From contig NZ_CP126604.1 in NCBI RefSeq assembly GCF_008364625.2, positions 2,294,001 through 2,358,000 of the forward strand: DNA of 64,000 bases, read 5' to 3'. Below the pieces are notes generated by a model, which did not search any database, was not told where the DNA came from, and was given only the letters and a program-made list of their open reading frames with translations. Shown piece by piece: positions 17,421 through 37,100 of the stretch. The DNA comes from Enterobacter dykesii (GTDB taxonomy: Bacteria; Pseudomonadota; Gammaproteobacteria; Enterobacterales; Enterobacteriaceae). The translations under genes and the position numbers were made by a program. Position 1 is the first letter of the stretch. Each line of letters opens with the position of its first letter.

Positions 17421-17544
17421 TATGTGTTGCGGTAATTAATATTTAGCTCCTTTATAATACCGTCGGACCGCACCCCATCGCACAGGCCAGAAAGATGACA
17501 AACAGCAGTGTCAGGGACGGATCTTCATAAAAAGAGTGAGTGAC

Positions 17545-19242
17545 ATGGACAACAAACTGAAAAAACATCGTTCCTTATACATCCCATACGCCGGACCGGT
17601 TTTACTCGAATTCCCCCTGCTCAACAAAGGCAGCGCCTTCAGCATGGAAGAGCGCAGCAGCTTTAACCTGCTGGGTTTACTGCCCGAAGTGGTTGAAACC
17701 ATTGAAGAACAGGCGGAGCGCGCGTGGATCCAGTATCAGGGTTTCAAAACCGAAATCGACAAGCACATCTACCTGCGCAACATTCAGGACACCAATGAAA
17801 CCCTCTTCTATCGCCTGGTGCAGAACCATCTTGAAGAGATGATGCCGGTGATCTACACCCCGACGGTGGGTGCGGCCTGCGAGCGTTTCTCAGAGATCTA
17901 CCGTCGTTCACGCGGGGTATTCATCTCCTATCAGAACCGTCACAACATGGACGATATTCTGCAGAACGTGCCGAACCACAATATCAAAGTGATTGTGGTG
18001 ACCGACGGCGAACGTATTCTCGGCCTCGGCGACCAGGGCATTGGCGGGATGGGGATCCCAATCGGTAAGCTCTCACTCTACACCGCCTGCGGCGGCATCA
18101 GCCCGGCGTATACCCTGCCGGTAGTGCTGGACGTCGGCACCAACAACCAGCAGTTGCTCAACGATCCGCTCTATATGGGCTGGCGCCATCCGCGCATCAC
18201 CGACGACGAGTACTATCAGTTTGTCGACGACTTCATCCAGGCCGTGAAGCACCGCTGGCCGGACGTTCTGCTGCAGTTTGAAGACTTCGCGCAGAAAAAC
18301 GCGATGCCGCTACTGAACCGCTATCGCGATGAGATCTGCTCCTTTAACGACGACATCCAGGGCACCGCGGCCGTGACCGTGGGTACGCTTATCGCCGCCA
18401 GCCGCGCAGCCGGCAGCCAGCTGAGCTACCAGAAAATCGTCTTCCTGGGCGCAGGCTCTGCGGGCTGTGGTATCGCCGAGCAGATCATCGCCCAGACGCA
18501 GCGCGAAGGCTTAAGCGAAGAGCTGGCCCGCTCCCGCGTCTTTATGGTTGACCGTTTCGGCCTGCTGACCGACGCTATGCCGAACCTGCTGCCGTTCCAG
18601 AACAAGCTGGTGCAGAAGCGCGAGAACCTGAAAAACTGGGATACCGACAACGAAGTCCTGTCCCTGCTGGACGTGGTGCGCAACGTGAAGCCGGATATTC
18701 TGATCGGCGTTTCCGGGCAAACCGGCCTCTTCACCGAAGAGATTATTCGCGAGATGCACAAGCACTGCGAGCGCCCTATCGTGATGCCGCTTTCTAACCC
18801 GACCTCCCGCGTGGAAGCGACGCCGCAGGACATCATCGCCTGGACCGAAGGTAACGCGCTGGTCGCGACCGGCAGCCCGTTCGACCCGGTGGTGTGGAAG
18901 GATAAAACCTATCCGATTGCCCAGTGCAACAACTCTTACATCTTCCCGGGCATTGGGCTGGGCGTGATCGCTTCCGGCGCGTCCCGCATTACCGATGAGA
19001 TGCTGATGTCGGCGAGCGAAACCCTTGCGGGCTACTCGCCGCTGGTCAACAACGGTGAAGGGCTGGTGCTGCCGGAGCTGAAAGACATTCACAAGGTGTC
19101 GCGCGCTATCGCGTTTGCGGTAGGTAAAATGGCGCAGCAGCAGGGCGTGGCGGTGAAAACCTCTGCCGACGCGCTGCAGCAGGCCATCGACGACAACTTC
19201 TGGAAACCTGAATACCGCAGCTATCGCCGTACCTCGATTTAA
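17545..19242 (+). CDS. maeA: NAD-dependent malic enzyme MaeA (SfcA)
   Basis: 565 aa, the E. coli length. It oxidatively decarboxylates L-malate to pyruvate with NAD+, in the cytoplasm. The malic-enzyme signature [16 protein letters not shown] and the Tyr of [15 protein letters not shown] are present, together with the nucleotide fold [15 protein letters not shown]. The start at 17545 ([10 protein letters not shown]) gives the E. coli N-terminal length; a GTG at 17536 is less likely. A hairpin follows the stop. Confidence 0.96.
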
Positions 19243-19257
19243 TTCGGCCTTCCGACC

Positions 19258-19284
19258 ATTCCCTCTCCCTTTGGGAGAGGGAAT
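19258..19284. terminator. Perfect hairpin after maeA
   Basis: attccctctccc / gggagagggaat, 12 perfect base pairs around a ttt loop, 15 bases after the stop. The weak T content downstream makes it a probable Rho-independent or processing hairpin. This ccctctccc/gggagaggg motif also occurs as a scattered repeat in enteric genomes. Confidence 0.6.
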
Positions 19285-19372
19285 TACATTTGTACCCCCA
19301 CTAGCCAAACCCCTTTTCCCCCGCTACACTCCCTTCATCCATTAACCTAATGAATATATAAGGAGGCCAATT

Positions 19373-19456
19373 ATGCTGTATCGTGAAATTTTCAATGTTT
19401 CACATACATTTGGTGATCGCACCAGCTCAAGCGTTATCGGTATCGTGCTGCGATAA
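19373..19456 (+). CDS. 27-codon leader peptide upstream of the ABC-F gene
   Basis: Short ORF with a very strong ribosome binding site (AAGGAGGCCAATT before ATG). The peptide starts MLYREIF and ends IGIVLR. The last 11 codons lie inside the first hairpin of the leader RNA (19425-19469). The stop codon falls in that hairpin's 3' arm. The next gene is an ABC-F ATPase. Short ORFs before ABC-F and erm genes are known elsewhere as ribosome-stalling sensors of antibiotics. I do not recognise this peptide. Function is inferred from position and RNA structure. Confidence 0.72.
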   Translation: MLYREIFNVSHTFGDRTSSSVIGIVLR

Positions 19457-19567
19457 CTTCTGCTTGAGCGAAGACACCAACCCCTGAAATCCCTTCTCTC
19501 GGGCTTACTGAGTTATCGTCAGCGATGTTTGACGAGGCATAAACATGCCTGTAACTCTTGGGTAAGC
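19425..19567 (+). promoter_or_regulatory. Translation-attenuator RNA for the ABC-F gene
   Basis: Hairpin A: gctcaagc (19425-19432) plus gttatcg (19433-19439) pairs with cgataac (19451-19457) plus gcttgagc (19462-19469), broken only by a four-base bulge. Structure B is a three-way junction: gcttac (19503-19508) with gtaagc (19562-19567), gagtta (19510-19515) with taactc (19552-19557), tcgtca (19516-19521) with tgacga (19530-19535), and ggcat (19536-19540) with atgcc (19545-19549). B's outer 3' strand contains the ABC-F ribosome binding site (gggtaag). Alternative helix C: gctgcgataact (19447-19458) with agttatcg-t-cagc (19511-19523), 12 pairs with one bulge, excludes both A and B. Opening A by a stalled ribosome would favour C and expose the site. 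Confidence 0.7.
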
Positions 19568-19571
19568 AACA

Positions 19572-21284
19572 ATGAGCACTTTACTCACTGCACAATCTTT
19601 ACGCGTTGATACGGCGTTTGGCACGCTCTTCGACTCACTCTCCTTTACGCTGAAAAAAGGCGACCGCATTGGCCTGCTGGGCGACAACGGCTGCGGTAAA
19701 AGCACGCTGCTGAAGGTGCTGGACGGTACTGACTCCCCCGCCGCCGGAACGGTCGCGCTGGCCGGGCACTGCCTGATGGCGCGCGTGGAGCAACATCTCC
19801 CGGACGCCATTTTCCCGCTGTCCATGCTGGATGCCGTACTCGCACAGCTGCCTCTGGCTGAGCGCGATAGCCTGCGCTGGAAAGCCGAAACGCTGCTGGC
19901 GAGCATGGGCTTCACGCCGCAGGATATGGCGCTGCAATCCGCCACGCTGAGCGGCGGGCAGCACACCCGCCTGCTGCTGGCGCGGGCGTTGATTCACGAG
20001 CCGGATCTGCTCCTGCTCGATGAACCCAGCAACCACCTTGATTTGCCGACCATGCTCTGGCTGGAACACTTTCTGCAGAACTGGTCGGGCAGCTTTGTGC
20101 TGGTCTCGCATGACAGACAGCTGCTGGATGCCGTCACGAACGGCAGCTGGATCCTGCGCGATAAAACGCTGCACTACTTCGCCCTTCCCTGCACGGCAGC
20201 CCGCAAGGCGCTTGAAGCAAAGGATGAAAGCGACGCGCAGCGCCACAAGGCGGAGCAAAAGGAGATCGACCGCGTGACCGCCAGCGCGAAGCGGCTGGCG
20301 ACCTGGGGCAAGGTTTACGACAACGAAGACCTGGCCCGCAAAGCCAAACAGATGGAAAAACAGGTCGAACGGCTTAAGGAGAGCCAGACGGCGCTCACGG
20401 CGGGCAGCCAGTGGACGTTAACCCTGCGCGGCGACGCGCTGCGGGCCGACCGTTTGCTGGAAATGGAGAACCTCGACGTGCCTCCTGCACCTGGCCTGCC
20501 GGCGTTGTTCAGCATCGAAATGGCGCGGCTGAAAAGCGGCGATCGCGTGGCGATTGTCGGTCGCAATGGCTGCGGAAAATCGTCGCTGATGAGGCTTATC
20601 TGGCGACATTTTACGGATGAACCGGCGGAAGGCGGGCTGAAAATCCATCCACGCGTGTCGCCTGGCTATTACGACCAGACGCTTCACCAGCTTGCGGACA
20701 ACGCCACGCTGCTCGACGCGCTGGAGCCTTTCGCACCAGATCCGCAGAACCGCAAAATGGCGCTGATAAGCGCGGGTTTCCCGTGGTCGCGTCACGGGCA
20801 AACGGTCAGCACGCTCAGCGGTGGCGAACGCTCGCGCCTGCTGTTCGTTGGCCTGACGCTTGCCCGCTACAGCCTGCTGATGCTGGATGAGCCGACCAAC
20901 CACCTCGACATGGAAGGCAAAGAGACGCTGGCGCAAACCCTTCAGCAGTTTGAAGGCGGCGTCCTGCTGGTCAGCCACGATCGCCAGTTAATTAGCCAAA
21001 GCTGCAACCGTTTCTGGCTGATTGAAGAGGGAAAGCTGAGCGAGTGGCACGATGCAGAGGCGGTGTTTGAACGCCTGCGTGAAAGCGCGGGGCTGGCGAC
21101 ACCCGCCGCGCCCGTCATCGACGCGGCGACGGTTCCATCCTCGCCGTATGACGATCTGCTCGAACGGCTGGTCGCGCTGGAAACGCTGCTGGAAGACGAT
21201 CTGGCGCGTAAGCCGAAGCATCAAAAGCCGCAGCTGCAGGCGCAATGGCGTAAAGAGATTGAGGAAATAGAAGCACTGCTGTAA
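19572..21284 (+). CDS. ABC-F family ATPase, not one of the four E. coli types
   Basis: 570-aa cytoplasmic twin-ATPase without membrane segments. Domain 1 has Walker A GDNGCGKST (about 38-45), LSGGQ (126-130) and LLLLDEPSNHLD. Domain 2 has GRNGCGKSS (about 330-338), LSGGERSR and LLMLDEPTNHLD. The interdomain linker (about 205-285, charged, helical, Lys/Glu-rich) corresponds to the P-site tRNA interaction motif that reaches the ribosome in ABC-F proteins. The C-terminus ends in a charged coiled-coil-like segment. It does not match EttA, Uup, YbiT or YheS as I remember them. In E. coli maeA and adhP are adjacent, so this gene is an insertion. The leader RNA suggests inducible synthesis and a role in translation or antibiotic protection (inference). 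Confidence 0.85.
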   Translation: MSTLLTAQSLRVDTAFGTLFDSLSFTLKKGDRIGLLGDNGCGKSTLLKVLDGTDSPAAGTVALAGHCLMARVEQHLPDAIFPLSMLDAVLAQLPLAERDSLRWKAETLLASMGFTPQDMALQSATLSGGQHTRLLLARALIHEPDLLLLDEPSNHLDLPTMLWLEHFLQNWSGSFVLVSHDRQLLDAVTNGSWILRDKTLHYFALPCTAARKALEAKDESDAQRHKAEQKEIDRVTASAKRLATWGKVYDNEDLARKAKQMEKQVERLKESQTALTAGSQWTLTLRGDALRADRLLEMENLDVPPAPGLPALFSIEMARLKSGDRVAIVGRNGCGKSSLMRLIWRHFTDEPAEGGLKIHPRVSPGYYDQTLHQLADNATLLDALEPFAPDPQNRKMALISAGFPWSRHGQTVSTLSGGERSRLLFVGLTLARYSLLMLDEPTNHLDMEGKETLAQTLQQFEGGVLLVSHDRQLISQSCNRFWLIEEGKLSEWHDAEAVFERLRESAGLATPAAPVIDAATVPSSPYDDLLERLVALETLLEDDLARKPKHQKPQLQAQWRKEIEEIEALL

Positions 21285-34154: not shown

Positions 34155-37100
34155 TTACGCTTTCTCGATGTTGACCAGAAACGCCTTGTACTCCGGCGTT
34201 TGCGAGTTGGAATCGCCGACGTTTGGCGTCAGGGTGTTGGCGATGTAGCCTTTCTGCGCCACGCCCTCAAAGCCCCAGTGCAGCGGGATCCCGACGGTTT
34301 CCACCTGCTGGCCGTGCACGTTCAGCGACTGCAGGCGGCGGGTGACCACAGCCACCGCACGAATAAAGCCACGCTTGCTGCTCACCTTCACGCGGTCGCC
34401 GTTGGCGATGCCTTTCGCCTTCGCCAGCGTTTCGCTGATCTCCACAAACTGTTCCGGCTGCGCGATAGCGTTAAGCCGCGCGTGCTTGGTCCAGGTGTGG
34501 AAATGCTCGGTCAGACGGTAGGTCGTCCCTACGTACGGGAACTTGTCCTTTTTACCTAAGCGCAGGACGTCATCTTCGTAGATACGCACCACCGGGCTGG
34601 AGACCACGTTCGGATGCAGCGGGTTGGTGCCGAGCGGCGTTTCCATCGGCTCGTAGTGTTCCGGGAAAGGCCCTTCCGCCAGCTTGTTGAGGGCAAACAG
34701 GCGTCCCAGCCCTTCCGGCTGCATGATGAACGGCCCGGTGTTGCTGCCCGGCGCGGCGGTGCTGTAGTCAGGGATATCGTTCCCCGTCCACTTCGCCCCG
34801 TTCCACTGGATCAGCATACGTTTCGGATCCCACGGCCTGCCGTTTACGTCTGCAGACGCGCGGTTGTAAAGCACGCGACGGTTCAGCGGCCACGCCCATG
34901 CCCAGCCCAGCGTATTGCCCAGCCCGGACGGGTCGGCGTTGTCGCGGTTGGCCATCTGGTTGCCCTGCTCCGTCCAGCTGCCGGTGTAGATCCAGCAGGA
35001 CGACGCCGTCGTGCCGTCATCGCGCAGCAGCGCGAAGCTGTTCAGCAGCTGGCCTTTCTTCGCCACCAGGTTGCCGTTAGCGTCATAGAGATCCGCCAGC
35101 GCCACGCCGTTATTCTCCTTCGCGACTTCTTCAGACTCAGGACGATCGGGCTGCTTGTAGTGCCAGCCCATCTTCAGCAGCGGCTCAGCGCCCTTGCCGC
35201 CTTCGGTGCGGTACATTTCGCGCAGGCGATGGTAAATCCCGGCCAGGATTTCGCCGTCGTTACGCGCTTCGCCCGGCGCGTCCTGACCTTTCCAGTGCCA
35301 CTGCAGCCAGCGGCCGGAGTTTGCAATCGAACCGTCCTCTTCCGCAAAGCAGGTAGACGGCAGGCGGAACACTTCGGTCTGAATCGATGCTGGATCGACA
35401 TCGTTTGATTCCCCGTGGTTCTGCCAGAAGGTGGACGTTTCGGTCACAAGCGGATCGATAACCACCATGTACTTCAGCTTGCTCAGGCTGCGAACGACTT
35501 TGTTTTTGTCCGGGAAGGAGGCCACAGGGTTAAAGCCCTGGCAGATATACCCCGTGACGTCGCCCTTATCCATCATGTTGAAATACTTGATGACGTCGTA
35601 CGCCTGGTCCCACTTCGGCAGCCACTCAAAGCCCCAGTCGTTCTCCTTCTGTGCCGCATCGCCGTAGAAGGATTTCATCAGGCTGACGTAGAACTTGGGA
35701 TAGTTGCTCCAGTAGTTCACCTGATCCGGCAGCGTCGCTTTCGGCGTATTGGCCTCAAGATACGTTTGCAGATCGGCCTGCTTTTCCGACGGCAGCGTCA
35801 GGTAGCCCGGCAGGCTGGTGGAAAGCAGACCGAGGTCGGTAAGCCCCTGAATGTTAGAGTGCCCGCGCAGCGCGTTTACGCCGCCACCGGCCATGCCCAT
35901 GTTGCCGAGCAGCAGCTGGATCATCGCCATGGTGCGGATGTTCTGCGCGCCGACGGTGTGCTGCGTCCAGCCAAGCGCATACAGGAACGTGGTGGTTCTG
36001 TCGGCGGCGCGGGTGGAGGCCAGTACCTCACACACCTTCAGGAAGTCCGATTTCGGCGTGCCGCAGATGTTTTCAACCACGTCCGGCGTATAGCGGGAGA
36101 CGTGCTGCTTCAGCAGGTTCCACACGCAGCGCGGGTGCGTCAGGGTTTCATCCCGCAGCGCATAGCCGTTTTCATCGAACTGATAGTTCCAGGACGTTTT
36201 ATCGTACTGGCGTTTTTCGGCGTCAAAGCCGCTAAACAGCCCGTCATCGAAGGCAAAATCATCCCGCACCAGCAGGTTCGCGTTGGTGTAGTGCTTAACG
36301 TATTCCGCGTTAATTTTGTTGTTTTCGATCAGGTACAGCAGCACGCCGGACAGGAAAGTAATGTCCGTGCCGGAGCGGATTGGCGCATAGATATCCGCCA
36401 CCGATGCCGTACGCGTAAAGCGCGGATCGACGACGATAAGCGTCGCATCGTTGTTGTTTTTCGCTTCCATCGCCCAGCGGAATCCCACCGGATGGGCCTC
36501 CGCGGCGTTACCGCCCATCACCACCACGACGTTAGCGTTTTTGATATCAACCCAGTGGTTGGTCATCGCACCGCGACCAAATGTTGGAGCAAGACTTGCT
36601 ACCGTTGGTCCATGTCAGACGCGCGCCTGGTTGTCTACCGCCAGCATGCCGAGAGAGCGCACAAATTTTTGCGTCAGCATGCCGGTTTCATTACTTGCCG
36701 CGGACGCACACAACATCCCGGTGGAGAGCCAGCGGTTGACCGTTACGCCCTGCGCGTTCTTTTCAATAAAGTTGGCGTCGCGGTCGGCTTTCATTAATTT
36801 TGCAATACGGGAGAAGGCCTCGTCCCAGGAGATACGCTGCCATTTAGCTGAACCCGGCGCGCGGTATTCCGGGTAGCGCAGGCGGTTTTCGCTGTGAACA
36901 TAGTCCAGCAGCCCCGCCCCTTTCGGGCAAAGCGCCCCGCGGCTCACCGGATGATCCGGGTCCCCTTCAATATGGTAAATCGCTTCTCTGGCGTTCTTCG
37001 CGCCATCGCCCAGGCTATACATTAAAAGCCCACAACCTACGGAGCAGTATGTGCAGGTGTTACGGATCTCTTTTGCGCGCAGCAGCTTATAGTTGCGTGC

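Follow-up and report, generated by a model that had tools for sequence, protein, structure and literature searches.

A conserved leader switch, predicted to be gated by ribosome position, upstream of a probable PAF1-type ABC-F gene in Enterobacter dykesii

What controls the additional ABC-F gene that Enterobacter dykesii carries between maeA (17536-19242) and adhP, and which signal could call for its product? ABC-F proteins are translation factors that act at the E site of the ribosome, and the known ones protect stalled ribosomes or let them resume. We have analyzed a window of 64,000 nucleotides around this gene (the genome is a single contig of 4.55 Mb), and all coordinates refer to this window. 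The gene and its ribosome binding site are the following:

19572-21284, + strand: ABC-F ATPase of 570 aa, probably of the PAF1 subfamily, with two ABC_tran domains; fold by AlphaFold/Foldseek
19556-19571, + strand: ABC-F ribosome binding site with a weak Shine-Dalgarno sequence (SD), CTTGGGTAAG; CTTGAGTAAG in most relatives

PF00005 is found twice in the protein, the model places helices 207-248 and 252-272 between the two domains, and VmlR2, PoxtA, YheS and EttA are among the top Foldseek matches. With two ABC domains, a helical linker and no transmembrane domain, the protein meets the criteria of the ABC-F class. A preliminary description of this DNA had called it a fifth ABC-F of the genome and one foreign to E. 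coli, and both statements hold: four other ABC-F genes were found, one that passes the EttA cut-off and three paralogues whose products have 543-645 aa, and none of 5426 E. coli genomes had a full-length match (only partial ones, to ybiT among the matches listed). The best ribosomal-protection match among the curated ARE models, NF000355, did not reach its cut-off (322.6 versus 380 bits), and the scores with the Sal, Vga, Msr and Lsa models were far below theirs.

The subfamily PAF1 has been described from Vibrio, Enterobacter, Klebsiella, Serratia and Citrobacter, but not Escherichia, as a predicted resistance ABCF whose function was untested in that study (Murina et al. 2019, PMC6723617); a leader or uORF is not mentioned in that paper. 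The distribution that we find fits this: the gene is present in 59 of 61 genomes of the genus, in Klebsiella and in Vibrio, and not in E. coli, while Serratia and Citrobacter were not checked by name. It is on this taxonomic distribution, and not on placement in a labelled tree, that we assign the protein to PAF1 as the probable subfamily. In the family it occurs in 77 of 295 genomes (36 of 154 genera) and in the order in 31 of 296; a class-wide search of 369 genomes at E <= 1e-170 returned only the window's own genome. Named carriers include Klebsiella pneumoniae, Rahnella, Ewingella, Pantoea, Proteus mirabilis, Vibrio, Photobacterium and Aeromonas caviae, and Morganella morganii has the gene on a 50-kb plasmid. 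The preliminary description had placed the gene between maeA and adhP in an enteric; the system is no enteric special case, as its lineage extends from Vibrio to Enterobacter. No phage copies were found. In three genomes of the genus the gene is damaged, with an internal stop, a split frame or an N-terminal part missing from the match; together with the two genomes that lack it, this indicates that the gene is dispensable.

Upstream of the gene lie a short reading frame and a possible promoter:

19302-19330, + strand: putative sigma-70 promoter, -35 TAGCCA (19302-19307), 17-nt spacer, -10 TACACT (19325-19330)
19360-19366, + strand: leader SD, AAGGAGG
19373-19456, + strand: leader ORF of 27 codons, MLYREIFNVSHTFGDRTSSSVIGIVLR followed by the stop codon

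A 27-codon leader with a strong ribosome binding site had been proposed earlier, and its SD is in fact perfect. At all 166 homologous loci, an ORF of 26-28 codons preceded by an SD stands in the same place upstream of ABC-F, with AAGGAGG or AAAGGAGG in nearly all relatives. These loci comprise ABC-F relatives of at least 51% identity (one genome is counted twice) from Enterobacteriaceae, Rahnella, Pantoea, Proteus, Morganella, Vibrio, Photobacterium, Aeromonas and one Burkholderia; at two of the 166 the script assigned an overlapping frame, though the 27-codon ORF is there. The leader ends in -LR before the stop at 156 of the 166 loci, and its stop lies 79-138 nt (mostly 109-115) from the ABC-F start. 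A -10-like/-35-like pair was found at 152 of the loci, in most of these at -50 to -42 from the leader ATG. It is plausible that the leader transcript would start from the putative promoter of the window, which a stricter consensus scan did not list. One locus has a 1-nt deletion before the leader stop; its frame has 35 codons, with the RNA helices retained, and the change is either a natural mutation of the leader or a mistake in the assembly.

Leader and ABC-F gene travel together, in differing neighbourhoods, on large plasmids and into Burkholderia lata. The latter copy, the single beta-proteobacterial one, came from a contig scan with generic ABC patterns that otherwise gave mostly distant ABC-Fs; its leader is Aeromonas-like and its ABC-F is 53% identical, which suggests that the whole unit was acquired by horizontal transfer. 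An ABC-F outgroup of 41% identity has no leader. An RNA model of the switch (R1) gave a single match in each of 24 of 248 genomes of the order, always directly 5' of this ABC-F, and no orphan copies 5' of other genes in these 248; it also detects sequences from Klebsiella, Proteus, Morganella and A. caviae that had been left out of its building. At Rfam gathering thresholds, the switch locus has no match. That no description of the leader was known, as had been stated before, is borne out insofar as we found no paper on it in the open-access literature (preprints excluded).

The RNA from the leader to the ABC-F start is strongly structured, folding better than each of 200 dinucleotide shuffles (z = -3.6). 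Its elements, numbered as segments 1 to 4, are:

19383-19403, + strand: H0 hairpin in leader codons 4-11 (19383-19388 with 19398-19403)
19425-19469, + strand: segments 1 and 2, a 15-pair hairpin over the leader 3' end (19425-19432 with 19462-19469, plus 19433-19439 with 19451-19457)
19503-19567, + strand: segments 3 and 4, a three-way junction occluding the ABC-F SD (outer stem 19503-19508 with 19562-19567)
19510-19515 with 19552-19557, 19517-19521 with 19530-19534 and 19535-19540 with 19545-19550, + strand: inner stems of the three-way junction
19447-19458 (segment 2 arm) with 19511-19523, + strand: alternative 2:3 helix, 98.0% of cells paired
19462-19504, + strand: inner part of the alternative state (19462-19468 with 19498-19504, 19470-19473 with 19493-19496), 93.8% of cells paired
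19426-19431 (segment 1, leader codons 18-20) with 19557-19562 (ABC-F SD region), + strand: 1:4 helix

The 15-pair hairpin, the junction whose outer stem hides the ABC-F ribosome binding site, and a 12-pair alternative helix that can coexist with neither had all been proposed in the preliminary description, and we recover each of them. H0, the 1:4 pairing and the extension of the alternative state were absent from it. The 1:4 helix also alters the picture of how the SD is hidden: the junction does occlude it, but it is not alone in doing so, since the leader itself occludes the SD through 1:4.

Covariation supports these helices. In the hairpin, the outer 8 pairs are formed in 99.2% and the inner 7 in 89.8% of cells, and 19430:19464 shows A-U/G-C double changes in 14 sequences. 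For the junction helices the paired fraction is 90-98% of cells, and each of the four stems except the outermost shows double changes; the 2:3 helix has compensatory changes across families. In H0, which joins leader codons 4-5 to codons 10-11, four pairs have double changes; for example, Glu5 goes to Lys together with Ser10 to Leu (GAA/TCA to AAA/TTA or TTG), and Cys4 to Asn together with His11 to Phe; this hairpin may slow or protect leader initiation, a role that we only infer. The 1:4 pairing (93.2% of cells paired in A4) joins CTCAAG in leader codons 18-20 to CTTGAG in the ABC-F SD region; it becomes CTCAGG:CCTGAG in Rahnella and GCTCTTGC:GCAAGAGC in Aeromonas and B. lata, and it reaches 13 pairs in Vibrio-type sequences. 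A small GGTG/CACC hairpin at leader codons 13-17 was also considered and rejected as not conserved (44-87% paired).

The preliminary description had named covariation as a check, and it is clearly passed, as both mutually exclusive states covary above shuffled or slid controls. Across 91 sequences, the hairpin and junction state with H0 is paired in 94.3% of cells, compared to 24-41% when slid by 1-3 columns, and has 15 pairs with double changes against a shuffled mean of 8.3. For the alternative 2:3 state, 96.0% of cells are paired versus 31-49% when slid; its double changes are fewer because it is highly conserved. When 49 sequences from all families were used, the nested 1:4 and 2:3 state had 17 double-change pairs against 6.8 in shuffles (0 of 500 as many), and the hairpin and junction state 14 against 9.8 (13 of 500). 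Moreover, the segments fit the partners of their own sequence better than those of other families, at -12.6 versus -9.0 kcal/mol for 1:4 and -18.7 versus -15.5 kcal/mol for 2:3, with none of 5000 permutations as good in either case; Pantoea (1:4) and Vibrio (2:3) are exceptions. Conservation for some other reason, such as a protein-binding site, an antisense RNA or chance, is hardly credible, as we found no support for it, the reverse-strand model matches are not significant (E = 0.3), and it would leave unexplained an ORF architecture and covariation in two exclusive states at 166 loci.

How a ribosome on the leader would act on these states was calculated on the assumption that a stalled ribosome keeps the RNA from -15 to +16 nt relative to its P site from pairing. 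With the P site at codons 13-20 of the window RNA, the probability of 2:3 is about 1.0 and that of 3:4 about 0, whereas at codons 22-26 the 2:3 helix is lost and 3:4 restored. As a read-out we took sequestration of the ABC-F SD by upstream RNA only, in place of its accessibility in the whole ensemble, which tells little, as downstream coding sequence pairs with the SD too. This sequestration falls from 0.76 to 0.28-0.48 for stalls at codons 14-21 in the window. The predicted exposure is partial, the mean over 23 species going from 0.68 to about 0.5. Most of these species share the stall window. The predicted switch is clear in Klebsiella, Rahnella and Vibrio THAF64, and masking predicts none that depends on stalling in Morganellaceae and in one or two further species of the 23. 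Stalls within the stall window differed from those beyond it by 0.14, against 0.06 with shuffled spacers (p = 0.003, 23 species); that shuffled spacers keep the smaller effect means that the leader by itself produces some of it. The Morganellaceae-type loci keep the leader and its -LR/-VR end and have a weaker 2:3 helix, and the switch there is possibly degenerate or differently wired.

In the ribosome-free window RNA, the combination of 1:4 and 2:3 is favoured over 1:2 and 3:4 by about 2.5 kcal/mol. Both forms hide the SD, so that the ABC-F gene would be off in either. The preference holds at equilibrium, and it is thus for kinetics to decide which of the two repressed forms prevails. A consensus scan for a stem followed by a T-run found no intrinsic terminator between 19373 and 19640 (the sole match lies upstream, at 19266-19282), which argues for control at the level of translation. 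We propose the following course of events. The leader, given its strong SD, is presumably translated constitutively. Upon its normal completion the ABC-F SD would be hidden by 1:2 and 3:4, that is by hairpin and three-way junction, or else by segment 1 (codons 18-20) paired as 1:4, with the 2:3 helix nested inside. If a ribosome stalled when its P site had reached roughly codons 14-21, it would cover segment 1 and block both 1:2 and 1:4; the 2:3 helix could then form and prevent 3:4, the SD would be freed and ABC-F made. ABC-F would presumably relieve the stall on drug-bound or otherwise stressed ribosomes, thereby closing a feedback loop.

The architecture, the exclusive covarying helices, the SD occlusion and the stall window of this scheme are computed; leader translation, stalling, the signal and the function of ABC-F are inferred. 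On this footing, the switch is well conserved and its mechanism well supported in outline, as is the logic of a stalled-ribosome leader attenuator put forward earlier, and we hold with considerable confidence that it works by translational attenuation through ribosome position. We go further with more reserve, though still on balance in favour: an undescribed switch would be fixed across this ABC-F subfamily (probably PAF1) in Enterobacteriaceae, Yersiniaceae, Erwiniaceae, Vibrionaceae and Aeromonadaceae, with two OFF states (1:2 with 3:4, and 1:4 with 2:3) and one ribosome-gated ON state that senses mid-leader stalls, and it would make a Gram-negative ABC-F an inducible, self-limiting factor of ribosome rescue or drug protection.

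What makes the ribosome stall is less certain. The downstream gene being an ABC-F, ribosome-targeting drugs are inferred to be the most likely signal; in the absence of expression, ribosome-profiling or drug data, we lean only slightly towards antibiotics as the main natural one. The leader peptide itself was examined for amino-acid conservation, a further check that had been named beforehand, with a divided outcome. Conservation at this level is seen over codons 13-16 (pN/pS 0.42, and 0.21 at codons 14 and 16), but not over codons 2-9 (about 1) nor codons 18-27, where pN/pS is about 2, third positions vary least and RNA pairing accounts for the conservation. Peptide-level constraint is thus weak except at codons 13-16, and its maximum coincides with the point where the predicted stall window begins. 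The peptide is very different from family to family. This would fit either a modest contribution of the nascent chain or a broad stress sensor.

The possibility that any slow or stalled ribosome at codons 14-21 opens the switch, with RNA geometry outweighing the peptide, stands close to an even chance. The stronger constraint on RNA than on peptide and the retention of the stall window in most families speak for such a general sensor of elongation stress, for which a precedent has been proposed in E. coli toiL-topAI (PMC12121999). However, the constraint at codons 13-16 is real, and RNA alone does not account for the constant length of the leader. The rival reading is that the leader core S-H-x-F/L-G-D-R (codons 10-16) arrests the ribosome together with one drug class, as with ErmCL or MsrDL, and that PAF1 is the dedicated resistance ABC-F for that class, in keeping with its predicted role (PMC6723617) and with the constraint at codons 13-16. 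Position 13 is F, L or Y and position 14 is G or S in nearly all 166 leaders. Yet the core varies by family (FGDR versus FGMK, LFGTF and FWFK), no +x+ or other known arrest motif is shared among the leaders, and codons 2-9 are unconstrained, so that we put peptide-specific arrest forward tentatively. A broad sensor of translation stress is as plausible as a peptide for arrest by a specific drug.

A transcriptional attenuator like that of vmlR or msrD is unlikely. Most known ABC-F uORFs work via terminators (PMC9226507, PMC10314930, PMC10201436), but in the consensus scan no stem with a T-run stands between leader and ABC-F here; termination by Rho as a secondary effect of translation remains possible. 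Even less can be said for amino-acid starvation sensed as in trp or his attenuators: Ser occurs more often than any other residue (63 of 454 across 17 family representatives) and the TCA of codon 19 is near-invariant, but the latter is due to its pairing in 1:2 and 1:4, no run of a single amino acid is kept across families, so that membership in this type is not given, and again a terminator is missing.

Translational attenuation by ribosome position thus remains our preferred reading, and among known systems it resembles that of ErmC/ErmCL, with a leader ORF with a strong SD, the logic of 1:2 and 3:4 versus 2:3, and a downstream SD hidden until segment 1 carries a stalled ribosome (PMC10219788). 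The features of that type are met here, namely an upstream ORF with its own SD (its translation being inferred) and exclusive helices of which one state hides the SD. In contrast to ErmC, the present switch governs an ABC-F, is Gram-negative, has the extra 1:4 helix and H0, and has a stall window predicted at about codons 14-21. A uORF also precedes the ABC-F genes vmlR, cplR, lsaA, msrD, are5sc and tiaA, but these uORFs have 3-9 codons (6 in MsrD, 3 in CplR), mostly come with intrinsic terminators and were described in Gram-positives (PMC10201436, PMC10314930, PMC12421871). Many of them stall at or near the start codon, and MsrDL at its stop codon, whereas the present leader has 26-28 codons, lacks a terminator and is Gram-negative. 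In E. coli toiL-topAI, an enterobacterial uORF pairs with the downstream RBS much like 1:4, and the system senses many ribosome-targeting drugs (PMC12121999). It differs, however, in its 8-codon uORF, its toxin-antitoxin operon and its Rho-dependence, and it is not homologous to the present leader.

Since 2019, PAF1 has been a predicted resistance ABC-F in several Gram-negative pathogens, and the leader switch offers a direct handle on it: the drug or stress that opens it should show what the ABC-F protects against. If our reading is true, leader-peptide attenuation of ABC-F genes, known from Gram-positives and actinobacteria, also governs a long-established system on the chromosomes of Enterobacter, Klebsiella, Vibrio and Aeromonas, and it would account for an ABC-F gene that is possibly silent in standard susceptibility tests. 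Switch and ABC-F together are a good candidate for a hidden, inducible defence against antibiotics or translation stress.

On megaplasmids of Pantoea sp. X85, Rahnella and Pantoea At-9b, the unit adjoins a MacB-type efflux operon or MFS transporters, neighbours that give a weak hint of a xenobiotic role. Elsewhere in the window, one further RNA element was found:

36562-36620, - strand: Rfam SECIS_3 element, just 3' of an in-frame TGA

This is an ordinary site of selenocysteine insertion, the gene probably being one for formate dehydrogenase.
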